From Gemmatimonadota bacterium (GTDB taxonomy: Bacteria > Gemmatimonadota > Gemmatimonadetes > Gemmatimonadales > Gemmatimonadaceae), in the NCBI GenBank assembly GCA_031127095.1, contig JARIEX010000010.1, positions 1-45,956 on the forward strand: a stretch of DNA of 45,956 nt, in the 5' to 3' direction. Under the pieces are notes generated by a model that saw nothing but the letters and a program-made list of their open reading frames with translations, was not told the origin of the DNA and searched no databases. Below are positions 9,743-14,131 of the stretch, one piece after another. Both the position numbers and the translations under genes were made by a program. How positions within the stretch are numbered: the first letter of the stretch is position 1; each line of letters opens with the position of its first letter.

Positions 9743-9838
9743 GCAAAACGCCGCCGTTCACGTAAGTGACGGCGGCGTTTGCGATTACGAATTATTGCCC
9801 CTCTAGGTTTCGAACCTGGAACCTTCTGATCCAGAGTC
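9743..9838 (-). repeat. Left copy of ~97-bp direct repeat: tRNA-Gln 3' half remnant plus terminator hairpin (att-like)
   Basis: gcaaaacgccgcc[g/a]ttcacgtaagtgacggcggcg...attattgcccctctagg..tcgaacct.gaaccttctga..cagagtc; about 87 of 97 aligned positions match 14006-14102 by hand alignment. Confidence 0.85.
9744..9780 (-). terminator. Hairpin terminator (duplicated tRNA-Gln terminator)
   Basis: aaacgccgccgttcac gtaa gtgacggcggcgttt, strong GC stem followed by TTTT on the minus strand. Confidence 0.6.
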
Positions 9839-10035: not shown

Positions 10036-11879
10036 CTACTTCCGGCGCACCGTCCTGATCCCGGTGCCGCCCTTCAGGAGAACGAGATGGTGGCCGGTCG
10101 CGCTCACATTCACGGCGGGTCCGCCGGTCACCGTGGCGGCAATTTCGAGTTCGCCCTCACCGCGCAACTCGACGTGTACATCACCGTCGGTCACGTCCGC
10201 GATAAACGCGGGAAAAATCTTGAGGCGAATGGTGTCTGCGACCATCTGAGGTTCGGCCGTCCCGAGTCCGACCTTCACTGGCCCGGCGCCGTAGATGAGA
10301 ATCTCTCCGGCGATTTGTCCGCGACTATCAACGACCACATTCTTGGTGCCGACCTTCGTCGCATAGACGGTTACGTTAGGGCCCTGTCCGGGCAGGCTTG
10401 TGCGCGCCGCCGATAGGCTGCCGATAGGCTGCCGGTTGGCGCGGAGCCGCGTTGGCGTAGCCCGCGCTGTGCCTCACGAAGTCGCTCGGCAATCACGGTC
10501 GCGTCGGCGGCTACCCCCGTCCAAATCGGCAGTGGTCCCCCAAGTTCTGACTTGACCGTGGCGATCGTAAAGACGGCACCGTCGACGACGACCGCCACCT
10601 CAGACCCGATGTGCTGCCGCGTCGTCGCTCGCAGCCGGTCGCGTGCGCCTGCGCTCACCATGGCCCCCACCGTCGCTTCACCATCGTTGACTTCCGATAC
10701 CATGATCGAGTCCACGTCCGCAAGTGTGAGAAACGGTTCGGTGACGGCAACCGCAACACTGTCACCCACTCCGCTCATGGCGAGCGCGACCTCAGTGCGG
10801 CGTGGCAGAACTGATACTCCGGCACCGCCTTGACGAGCGACCCACCGATACTCCAGTGGAGACCCCGCCGCGTTCAGCTGATTGCTGCTCGGTGTCGGCA
10901 CGGCGGCGATCAGCAACGAGGCACCAATGACACCGACGGCCAGCGCCGCGATGGTCGAGCGCTTGTGCCGTGTTGGACGGGTCGTCATGGCGTCAATCCT
11001 TTGCTTGAGTTGTGAAGCCTGCGGGGAGAGTGGAGCAGCCAGCGACATCAGCAGACGTTGTCCCCGAGGGGCGGTTGATCGGTGGTGCGAGACGAGCAGG
11101 AGTAGCTGCCCATACGTCTTCGGGCTCGGCTCCCGGCGAAGCACGCGGGCATCACAGTCGCACTCGATGGCGAGGCGCAGACGGCTCCAACTCCACCACA
11201 GCACGGGGTGCCACGGCATCAGGACCAAGGTGCACAGCGCCGTCGTCAGCATTGCGGGGTCACGGGTGGCCAGATGCTCCTGCTCATGACGAATCACGAG
11301 TGACCGGAGCGAGTCGTCGAGAGCCATCACCCAGCGCGGGATCACGATGGCTCTCGGGTTCCCGCCCATCGCTGCGGGGCCGATCTCTTCGGAGACCAGC
11401 ACCGTTGTACCGCACACGGTCTCGGACTTCAGCCCCAGTCGCATCCGGCGCGCCTCGGAAAGGGCGTGCAGCATCATCCCCAAGAGAAAGGCCGACACCA
11501 CGGCCCAGAGCGCGAGCAGAAGGCCATCGTATCCCGCTGCGCTATCGTGAATGCGGTTGAGAAGTTCCCGCCATCTGTTGGTCAGGCGCTTGGGCGCGGT
11601 GCTGACGACCAATGCGTTGTCGTCTCGTATTGAAGACATGCCGACCGATCCGCCTGGCGACGCTACGTCGCCTCCGCGGAGCACCGTCGGCGCCGGAACA
11701 ATCGGCTGCTCTCGCATGAGCATCGCGGCCGCCGGGAACACGACCATGGCCGACATGGCGACGGCCCACACGAATCGCGTTGGTCCCCCGACGAGACGCA
11801 CGCCGCGCTCGGCGAGGACCGCGAGGAAGCCGAGCAGGAGCCCCACCAGAAGGGCGTACATCGCGAGCGCGGCGATCAT
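10036..11879 (-). pseudogene. M56-family (BlaR1-like) peptidase gene, frame disrupted by 11-bp tandem duplication
   Basis: Intact part 10371-11879 (502 aa): TM segments and VIRHEQEHLATRDP (HExxH). Downstream frame 10036-10408 is open (…ARTSLPGQGPNVTVYATKVGTKNVVVDSRGQIAGEILIYGAGPVKVGLG…VRRK) and rejoins if one of two gccgataggct units is removed. Confidence 0.7.
10409..10430. repeat. Exact 11-bp tandem duplication (gccgataggct x2)
   Basis: Direct reading: gccgataggct gccgataggct gccg. Confidence 0.95.
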
Positions 11880-12262
11880 TGGTCCTTCTTTTCCGATCCG
11901 GCCAAACGGCCGTTCAGGTGAGCGTGCAATGCCTTGAGCTCGTCGGCACTGAGGGCGTCGTTCTCAAGGAGATGCGCGACCACGCTCACGGGCGAGCCGC
12001 CGAAAAACTTTGCCACCAGTCGCGACACGGCGCTGCCCTTCACCGCCTCCTGACTGACAACGGGGAAGTACCGGAACAGCCGCCCCTCAGCCTCATGATC
12101 CACGAGCGCCTTCGCCTCGAGGTTCCGCAGGATGGTGAGCACGGTGTTGTATGCCAGCGCGGCGGGGAGACGCTCTTTGACCTCGGCCACGGTACCTGGC
12201 CCGGCAGTCCAGAGCACCATCATCACGTCCAACTCGCGTTCGCCCAGCGACACTTGGTCCAT
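11876..12262 (-). CDS. BlaI/MecI/CopY-family transcriptional repressor
   Basis: MDQVSLGERELDVMMVLWTAGPGTVAEVKERLPAALAYNTVLTILRNLEAKALVDHEAEGRLFRYFPVV; 4-nt overlap with the M56 gene. Confidence 0.92.
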   Translation of the reverse strand: MDQVSLGERELDVMMVLWTAGPGTVAEVKERLPAALAYNTVLTILRNLEAKALVDHEAEGRLFRYFPVVSQEAVKGSAVSRLVAKFFGGSPVSVVAHLLENDALSADELKALHAHLNGRLAGSEKKDQ

Positions 12263-12273
12263 CGCAGCTCCTG

Positions 12274-12289
12274 AACTATGTGGATAGTT
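12274..12289. promoter_or_regulatory. Operator-like palindrome AACTA-TGTGGA-TAGTT (within ctgaactat-gtgg-atagttcag)
   Basis: Perfect 9-bp arms at 12271-12292, immediately downstream of predicted -10 of the blaI-like gene. Confidence 0.65.
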
Positions 12290-12290
12290 C

Positions 12291-12319
12291 AGTGTACGAC
12301 CGCGAGGCCTGCCTGTCAA
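12291..12319 (-). promoter_or_regulatory. Sigma70-like promoter of the blaI-like/M56 operon
   Basis: Minus strand TTGACA - 17 nt - TACACT. Confidence 0.6.
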
Positions 12320-12333: not shown

Positions 12334-12367
12334 TTACTCCAGCATCCTGCCGTTGCGCCGGGACATA

Positions 12368-12415
12368 GACAATAGTCAACTTTGTGTATTATTATCAACT
12401 TCGTTGACAATAGTC
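12368..12415. promoter_or_regulatory. AT-rich inverted/direct repeat region upstream of the wHTH-NTase gene
   Basis: gacaatagtcaac (12368-12380) and gttgacaatagtc (12403-12415) as near-perfect inverted repeats, with gacaatagtc also repeated directly; central attatcaac-ttc-gttgacaat. Confidence 0.5.
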
Positions 12416-12430
12416 CACCAACGTCTTCCC

Positions 12431-13396
12431 ATGCGCCGCATGCCCCGTCGCGCACTGACACCCCTGAGCTATCTGGACGCGCCGCTCGACGAGCTGCTCG
12501 GCCAAGTGTCGCACGTCCGCATCCTGCGGGTGCTTTCGGAGTCGGAACACCCACTGCCCCCCGGCGAGCTGGCGAGGGCCACGCGGCTGAACCTCTCTGG
12601 GGTGCTCCGGGCTATCAACCGGCTCGCGCATCTGGGGATCGTGCGCGCCCTAGGTGCGGGCGGGCGGCAGGTGATCGAGCTGAGTCCGGCCCACGCGTTC
12701 GCTCCAGTCCTTCGTGCCCTCTTCGACGCCGAACGTCAGCGGCGCAGCATGCTCATCGCCTCGCTCCAGGAGCTGATGAAGTCGATCATTCCGGCCCCGC
12801 ATGCGGCATGGATTGAAGGACCGCACGCCAACGGCATGGACTCGGCGCACGATGCGCTGCGGTTAGGTGTACTGACGACCGTACGGGAACGCCACGCTGT
12901 TGCCGAACAACTGATCGGTCGCCTTCGCGATCTCGAGCGGCGCTTCGACCTGAGCATCGATCTGTTGGTGCGCACGCGCGCGGACCTTGAGACGATGACC
13001 GCCGACCGGCAGGACGCCGTACGCGACGCCACCCTGCTGTACGGGGTGTTACCACTATCGGCCGGCGTGTTGCCCCCGCACGTCGACGAGCCCCCGGCCG
13101 CGAAGACTCACGGGGACCTCGATGAGAGGTCCCGTGCACAGGCGGAGCGAGTGGCCATGGCGATTTCGCGCGACCCGCGTCTGATCGACGTCGCACAGCG
13201 GTGGGTTCAGCAGCGCCTGCAGCACGCGTCGGCCGCCGAGGCGCACGAGCTGCGCGAGTGGGAGCACATCCTCACGCTGCCGCCGCATCGCATAGCGGCG
13301 TTCCTGCGCGATCCCGGCGAAAGGGCTACGCGGCTGCGTCAGACCACGCCCTTCGCAGGCGTCGGCTCTGATGGCGAACGAGGAGTCCGCCAGTGA
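12431..13396 (+). CDS. Winged-helix protein with degenerate nucleotidyltransferase-like domain
   Basis: N-term LDELLGQVSHVRILRVLSESEHPLPPGELARATRLNLSGVLRAINRLAHLGIVRALGAGGRQVIELS (wHTH) then APHAAWIEGPHANGMDSAHDALRLGVLT where an NTase GS/DxD motif would lie. Confidence 0.6.
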   Translation: MRRMPRRALTPLSYLDAPLDELLGQVSHVRILRVLSESEHPLPPGELARATRLNLSGVLRAINRLAHLGIVRALGAGGRQVIELSPAHAFAPVLRALFDAERQRRSMLIASLQELMKSIIPAPHAAWIEGPHANGMDSAHDALRLGVLTTVRERHAVAEQLIGRLRDLERRFDLSIDLLVRTRADLETMTADRQDAVRDATLLYGVLPLSAGVLPPHVDEPPAAKTHGDLDERSRAQAERVAMAISRDPRLIDVAQRWVQQRLQHASAAEAHELREWEHILTLPPHRIAAFLRDPGERATRLRQTTPFAGVGSDGERGVRQ

Positions 13397-13917
13397 CACG
13401 CGAGCAGCTGGAGCATGCGATTCGCGCGGCCTGCGACGTGGTGGCCGAACACGAGGTGTATGTGTTCGGGTCGCAGTCGATCCTTGGGCAGTTCCCCGAG
13501 GTGCCGGCCACACTCAAGATGTCGGCGGAGGCGGACATCTCGCCGCGCCATCGTCTTGACCGCGTCGAGTACCTCAACACCATCGGTGAAGACTCTCCGT
13601 TTCATCAAGCGCACGGCTTCTACGTGCACGGCCTCCCGATCACCGAGGCGGCCACGCTGCCAGCGGGGTGGGAGGAGCGAACCGTCGCCGTCTACGCGTC
13701 CGAAACCAGCACGGGCCTGTGCCTTGAAGGACATGACCTCGCCGCGAGCAAACTCGTGGCGTTCCGAGACAAAGACCGCGAGTTCGTTCTCACGCTACTG
13801 GCCGAGGAGTTCCTGTCGAGCACCACGCTCGTCGAGCGCGTGTGGCGACTGCCCGTTCCACATGCGGAGCGAGAGCGCATCGCGCGATGGGTGCATCTGA
13901 GTGTTCAGGAGCTGTAG
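13393..13917 (+). CDS. DUF6036-like nucleotidyltransferase
   Basis: MTREQLEHAIRAACDVVAEHEVYVFGSQSILGQFPEVPATLKMSAEADISPRHRLDRVEYLNTIGEDSPFHQAHGFYVHG; GSQSILG and downstream acidic motif; GTGA overlap with upstream gene. Confidence 0.65.
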   Translation: MTREQLEHAIRAACDVVAEHEVYVFGSQSILGQFPEVPATLKMSAEADISPRHRLDRVEYLNTIGEDSPFHQAHGFYVHGLPITEAATLPAGWEERTVAVYASETSTGLCLEGHDLAASKLVAFRDKDREFVLTLLAEEFLSSTTLVERVWRLPVPHAERERIARWVHLSVQEL

Positions 13918-14005: not shown

Positions 14006-14102
14006 GCAAAACGCCGCCATTCACGTAAGTGACGGCGGCGCATGCGATTACGTAACTATTGCCCCTCTAGGAATCGAACCTAGAACCTTCTGAGTCAGAG
14101 TC
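14006..14102 (-). repeat. Right copy of the ~97-bp direct repeat (3' half of intact tRNA-Gln plus terminator)
   Basis: See 9743-9838. Confidence 0.85.
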
Positions 14103-14131
14103 AGACGCTCTGCCAATTGAGCTAAGGGGCA
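14059..14131 (-). tRNA. tRNA-Gln (anticodon CTG)
   Basis: tgcccct-ta-gctcaattggcagagc-g-tctga-ctCTGac-tcaga-aggtt-ctagg-ttcgatt-cctag-aggggca; full cloverleaf. Confidence 0.95.

Follow-up and report, generated by a model that had tools for sequence, protein, structure and literature searches.

Two overlapping genes in a genome of the phylum Gemmatimonadota probably constitute a toxin–antitoxin (TA) module of type II-like organisation, in which, to judge from sequence, a protein carrying a degenerate MNT domain (pseudo-MNT) would serve as antitoxin and autorepressor and a DUF6036 nucleotidyltransferase would be the toxin. The window analysed here is the whole 45,956-nucleotide stretch (positions 1 to 45,956 of contig JARIEX010000010.1, assembly GCA_031127095.1). 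A sequence-only reading had earlier proposed the pair as a TA candidate, and this proposal gains support from the way the genes are organised, from losses that affect only one of the two, from DNA-binding domains that can be exchanged, from an operator candidate, and from occurrence on plasmids. The C-terminal domain of gene 1, the operator candidate, and the swapping of DNA-binding parts go beyond that reading.

Both open reading frames were found at their expected positions on the forward strand, sharing the four bases GTGA (13393–13396) as previously claimed. Gene 1 (12440–13396, +), the antitoxin/autorepressor candidate, joins a winged helix (wHTH), a pseudo-MNT domain, and a C-terminal helical domain (open reading frames, Pfam, structure model, and Foldseek). 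It encodes 318 amino acids from the ATG at 12440, compared with 321 from the ATG at 12431 (12431–13396); the start at 12440 is favoured by conservation and by the starts of relatives. Gene 2 (13393–13917, +), the candidate toxin, begins with GTG and encodes a DUF6036 nucleotidyltransferase of 174 amino acids (open reading frame, Pfam, and conservation). The pair recurs in many phyla at about 35–60% identity, which places it far beyond chance, and its compact, overlapping arrangement with the gene for the DNA-binding putative antitoxin in first position is the layout of type II TA modules.

Gene 1: a winged helix and a dead MNT domain

The winged helix that had been recognised at the N-terminus of gene 1 is borne out by Pfam (HTH_IclR at 1.2e-5, above the cut-off; MarR_2 at 2e-5), by the model, and by MarR-type structural matches, and spans residues about 18–90 of the 321-residue reading (12482–12700, +). 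The MNT domain, located by alignment, model, and Foldseek, occupies residues about 123–206 (12797–13048, +). Within it, WIEGPHANGMDSAHDALRLGVL matches up, at every column and without gaps, with WLYGSVARGEDMPTSDVDIAIV from active wHTH-MNT proteins of this phylum, and it follows that GS and DxD have been lost, in agreement with the earlier claim that the catalytic residues were gone. Gene 1 as modelled by AlphaFold (pLDDT 90.5, pTM 0.79) comprises, in order, the winged helix, a long helix, a small alpha/beta domain, and a C-terminal domain of five helices, with MNT-like strands at residues 125–129, 143–148, and 176–181. The sequence-only reading had suggested structure prediction as a check; Foldseek searches with this model returned MarR regulators, with the HEPN-MNT antitoxins 8xeo, 7ae9, and 7bxo among the best matches.

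Loss of the catalytic motif is general in the family. The 59 distinct fused relatives examined come from Gemmatimonadota, Fermentibacterota-type genomes, Desulfobacterales, Acidobacteria, Actinomycetota, Balneolaceae, and others, and not one of them combines GS with an in-register DxD, a distribution that indicates an old pseudoenzyme and not local decay. Fifteen of the 59 still have a G-S/T pair within the region of the motif (e.g. WIFGSAARGEDEYGDPVQIALL of Balneolaceae). Four fused proteins (L056, L063, L071, and L103) contain a chance ExD, which lies three columns out of register and lacks GS; these were rejected as active enzymes. Mean pairwise identity among the fused proteins is 40% in the winged helix, 39% in the C-terminal domain, and 30% in the pseudo-MNT domain. 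The unusual layout that had been outlined, a dead MNT domain fused to a winged helix beside a nucleotidyltransferase with intact motifs, is thus supported at the family level by alignments, model, and Foldseek.

By sequence, homology to PDC-M05A, an active wHTH-MNT antitoxin, covers the N-terminal two-thirds of gene 1 (residues 1–215). PADLOC models for PDC-M05A match gene 1 of the window at 8e-7, over the wHTH-MNT part only, and one of them matches 45 of the 67 proteins in the gene 1 alignment, which includes six active wHTH-MNT proteins. A branch of the tree supported at 100/97 sets the active PDC-M05A proteins apart on one side, so a single origin suffices for the split between active and dead proteins. 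On sequence, the MNT domain of gene 1 descends from a wHTH-MNT antitoxin of the HEPN-MNT modules and has lost catalysis. PDC-M05 consists of a nucleotidyltransferase and a HEPN protein, and its antiviral role is unconfirmed (PMC12988326). Gene 1 shares the wHTH-MNT component with HEPN-MNT/PDC-M05 but differs in lacking an active MNT domain, in carrying an additional C-terminal domain, and in being partnered by DUF6036 in place of HEPN; at active wHTH-MNT loci in the phylum, the next gene encodes about 140 amino acids and is taken as the HEPN partner, not DUF6036.

Gene 2: a DUF6036 nucleotidyltransferase

Gene 2 scores 24.4 bits against DUF6036 (PF19502), above the cut-off of 23.6, and is therefore a member of this family, whose profile matches 90 of 90 gene 2 relatives. 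The GSQ motif followed by an acidic segment that had been noted in gene 2 is present as GSQ at residues 26–28 and S44-x-E46-x-D48, with S44 and D48 invariant; K120 and D128 are also conserved. On these motifs, gene 2 is apparently a catalytically competent nucleotidyltransferase.

The structure prediction likewise suggested for gene 2 gave a model with pLDDT 98, the first four PDB matches of which are chains of the toxins MenT1 and MenT4, all weak (E 0.05, TM 0.45). In MenT1, the antitoxin brings about phosphorylation at T39 (PMC11375011). S44 of gene 2 precedes E46 by two residues, the same spacing as that of T39 ahead of D41, which makes S44 a candidate control site and nothing further. Additionally, K120 and D128 may correspond to K137 and D152.

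These resemblances to MenAT, together with the position of the nucleotidyltransferase (here the putative toxin) second in the operon as in MenAT/AbiE, do not extend to the sequence. The earlier suggestion of an affinity with AbiE/MenAT is not supported at that level: hhalign of the gene 2 profile against AbiEii (the DUF1814 enzymes of AbiE/MenAT) gave a probability of 0.1, and Pfam AbiEii gave no match. The gene 2 profile found nothing among PDB sequences at E<=10, an NCBIfam scan of gene 2 gave no match, and PADLOC has no model that recognises the gene 2 found in the window. Unlike in AbiE/MenAT, gene 1 has no AbiEi/COG5340-type match in the libraries scanned; as far as sequence goes, its closer relative is the HEPN-MNT/PDC-M05A antitoxin.

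A three-repeat operator candidate

Repeat analysis revealed three near-palindromic direct repeats upstream of gene 1 (12368–12417, +; starts at 12368, 12387, and 12406) that overlie a sigma-70-like promoter (12366–12395). Their period is 19 bp, as throughout the genus of the window. Promoters of the fused type have three direct repeats with an exact period of 20 bp (mean score 20.0 versus 13.6 expected, z=21, a value that overstates certainty since related loci are not independent), and no other period from 13 to 29 gives a comparable signal. The repeat score exceeds the level reached by 0.1% of dinucleotide shuffles at 27 of 63 fused-type loci. Each repeat is itself palindromic, often AACTATAGTT or GACWATWGTC-like (palindromy z=8.3), and a fourth copy is mostly absent upstream of fused-type genes. 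Repeat sequence varies among lineages and spacing stays constant, which suggests a rigid repressor oligomer.

The array does not occur in front of partner genes with XRE, MazE-like, or no DNA-binding parts (z=−1.4). It is, at the 20-bp period, shared by some active PDC-M05A promoters (L261, L263, and L260). Specificity of the operator for the dead-MNT type was therefore rejected; the operator tracks the wHTH-MNT module rather than catalytic loss. An operator seems so far undescribed for the PDC-M05 candidate system.

Distribution and genomic setting

Within the phylum, the C-terminal domain is patchily distributed (34 of 298 genomes). In the window, the module faces the 3′ end of a tRNA-Gln (CTG) gene (14059–14131, −), and a partial copy (about 90%) of the 3′ half of this tRNA and its downstream hairpin, matching 14006–14102, lies at 9743–9838 (−) and marks the other boundary of a 4.26-kb islet. 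A tRNA-flanked position had been claimed before; the case is stronger than was stated, as the same site serves this genus as a hot spot for cargo. At six loci of the genus (L235, L236, L237, L239, L240, and L249), tRNA-Gln 3′ fragments and the hairpin lie between a TolC-like gene and a tRNA-Gln/Uma2/GlnRS block, where they separate different cargo units and resemble scars left by successive insertions. The islet of the window showed no integrase.

Besides the module, the islet holds genes for a BlaR1-like M56 peptidase and a BlaI-like repressor (10371–12319; named by eye). The start of a BlaI-like gene also lies upstream of the gene 1 copy in genome G250; the upstream sequence in G269 is different. 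Other cargo of the hot spot includes a second pair, of an approximately 168-amino-acid wHTH protein and an approximately 237-amino-acid nucleotidyltransferase (FVGGLMIPFF...RPTDDVDVVV), at L235:5628-6844, L240:4498-5417, L249:5294-6414, and L241:1-650; from its sequence, it looks like another wHTH/nucleotidyltransferase TA module. A small pair resembling DUF4160/DUF2442 (named by eye) is found in the same hot spot at L239:4708-5197 and L240:3597-3962.

Relatives of gene 2 were found on 60 plasmids, 28 of them predicted to be conjugative, and on pALIDE01 the relative adjoins an AbiEii gene and an integrase gene. Viral contigs and phage records contained no phage-encoded relatives, and a viral structure library gave noise only. 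Plasmid pairs annotated as ‘XRE family / helix-turn-helix regulator + DUF6036 family nucleotidyltransferase’ (e.g. NZ_CP081674 and pALIDE01) have the same enzyme family and an overlapping upstream partner; they differ from the pair in the window in having another or no DNA-binding part and no pseudo-MNT domain, and are known from automatic annotation only.

This setting bears on whether the module is a dedicated anti-phage abortive-infection system, which would be a use of the module and not a different mechanism. The match of the PDC-M05A models to the wHTH-MNT part and the location in a tRNA hot spot among other TA-like cargo speak for such a use, but PDC-M05 is itself a predicted candidate whose HEPN partner is absent here, gene 2 goes unrecognised by PADLOC, and plasmid maintenance would account for the same facts. 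We regard a dedicated anti-phage role as unlikely.

A constant C-terminal domain and exchanged DNA-binding parts

The C-terminal helical domain of gene 1 (residues about 225–318; 13103–13396, +), recognised from the loci of relatives, has the motif RLRQxxPF and DUF6036 as its constant partner. An alignment scan of bacterial genomes with gene 2 yielded 473 relatives of this DUF6036 subfamily, of which 80 were kept for further work. Wherever upstream sequence was available, and recognised broken copies apart, the overlapping upstream gene carries the C-terminal domain; the overlap is mostly 4 bases and otherwise 8 to 20. What precedes the domain varies: the N-terminal part may be wHTH-pseudoMNT, XRE, MazE-like (PF11455), a basic segment of RGRP type, or nothing at all, the minimal partners without a DNA-binding part having about 104–118 amino acids. 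HTH_3, of XRE type, matches 7 of the 27 members of the partner alignment. Some relatives align to residues 231–318 of gene 1 only, in open reading frames of 147–206 amino acids, and at their loci the order is XRE-HTH, C-terminal domain, DUF6036. XRE-type DUF6036 pairs are often flanked by Ser/Thr protein-kinase genes (L034, L038, L039, and L155).

Strict co-occurrence with DUF6036 suggests that the C-terminal domain neutralises gene 2. It could be argued instead that gene 1 simply regulates a small regulatory or detoxifying nucleotidyltransferase, e.g. a drug- or metabolite-modifying enzyme, in an arrangement other than TA: wHTH/MarR-like regulators frequently control an adjacent enzyme, a BlaR1/BlaI-like sensor pair adjoins the module, and several genomes keep gene 1 after loss of gene 2. 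A constant partner domain with swappable or absent DNA-binding parts, however, fits neutralisation and not mere regulation, and translational overlap throughout and plasmid spread also stand against this explanation, which we consider improbable.

One-sided decay of gene 2

Six genomes of the Gemmatimonadota sample (G269, G147, G273, G025, G144, and G255) have an open gene 1 next to which gene 2 is either absent or broken. In G269, a 144-bp in-frame deletion removes S44–D48 (L052/L157); gene 1 of this genome differs from that of the window by synonymous changes only, so the deletion is recent. Gene 1 of G147 is open but cut by the contig end. Two further lesions of gene 2, both in-frame stops, occur in other phyla, one inside GSQ (L071) and one after K95 (L087). 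Neither the Gemmatimonadota sample nor the scanned gene 2 relatives contained an intact gene 2 that lacked gene 1. One apparent case, G134 (L155), was rejected, as its gene 2 is a remnant without an N-terminus, fused to a kinase fragment; this in-frame fusion is followed by an MNT-HEPN-like pair.

The toxin gene of a type II TA module is expected to be lost without its antitoxin gene and not the reverse, and the observed losses, 8 loci versus 0, have this pattern (two-sided p about 0.008; 0.016 for 7 versus 0 and 0.031 for 6 versus 0), the eight being few and mostly from draft genomes or MAGs. Where gene 1 survives the loss of its partner, this could also reflect a regulatory role of its own.

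The direction of loss also weighs on a reversal of roles as in MntA-HepT, with gene 2 as an antitoxin that nucleotidylates gene 1 and a HEPN-like C-terminal domain as the toxin. Indeed, the antitoxin of HEPN-MNT modules is the active nucleotidyltransferase (PMC3710099), and partner proteins of the XRE, MazE-like, and minimal types (e.g. L115:2706-3017 and L125:2559-3017) have a strongly conserved RSLALH/RSLAMH resembling the HEPN Rx4-6H motif. We judge such a reversal very improbable: persistence of gene 1 alone at eight loci would be lethal if it were toxic, the DNA-binding part is carried by gene 1, the RxxxxH sits in the first helix and has disappeared from the fused type, whereas HEPN proteins place their motif at the end of helix 3 (PMC3710099), and the C-terminal domain matches no Pfam family, HEPN included. 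With Pfam blank and the motif misplaced, HEPN identity of the domain was rejected.

Proposed function and implications

Under the TA interpretation, gene 2 is the probable toxin and, by analogy with MenT, would add nucleotides to RNA, most likely tRNA. Gene 1 would be both autorepressor and antitoxin: through the C-terminal helical domain it would bind and silence the toxin, and its winged helix would bind the three evenly spaced palindromes detected in silico over the promoter. The pseudo-MNT domain is now probably an oligomerisation or positioning element, or perhaps a ligand sensor.

More tentatively, and with slightly less than even confidence, we propose that the pair belongs to an undescribed class of nucleotidyltransferase TA modules, defined by DUF6036 and a new antitoxin domain, in which an MNT antitoxin captured by fusion and now a pseudoenzyme scaffold sets out the repressor in an array along a rigid operator of three sites, such that a dead nucleotidyltransferase regulates a live one. 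DUF6036/PF19502 is not mentioned in the literature searched, a search with most subscription papers and preprints outside its scope, so that a description elsewhere is possible; nor is the pair listed in the accessible part of a TA survey (PMC2701414).

On this basis, DUF6036, a widespread nucleotidyltransferase ‘of unknown function’, gains a concrete and testable prediction of toxin activity, and the C-terminal helical domain becomes a new candidate neutralising domain. The S44-x-E46-x-D48 motif allows the MenT auto-phosphorylation model to be probed outside MenT. An enzyme antitoxin that turned into a pseudoenzyme, with its operator architecture kept across phyla, would illustrate how antitoxins are rebuilt by domain exchange.
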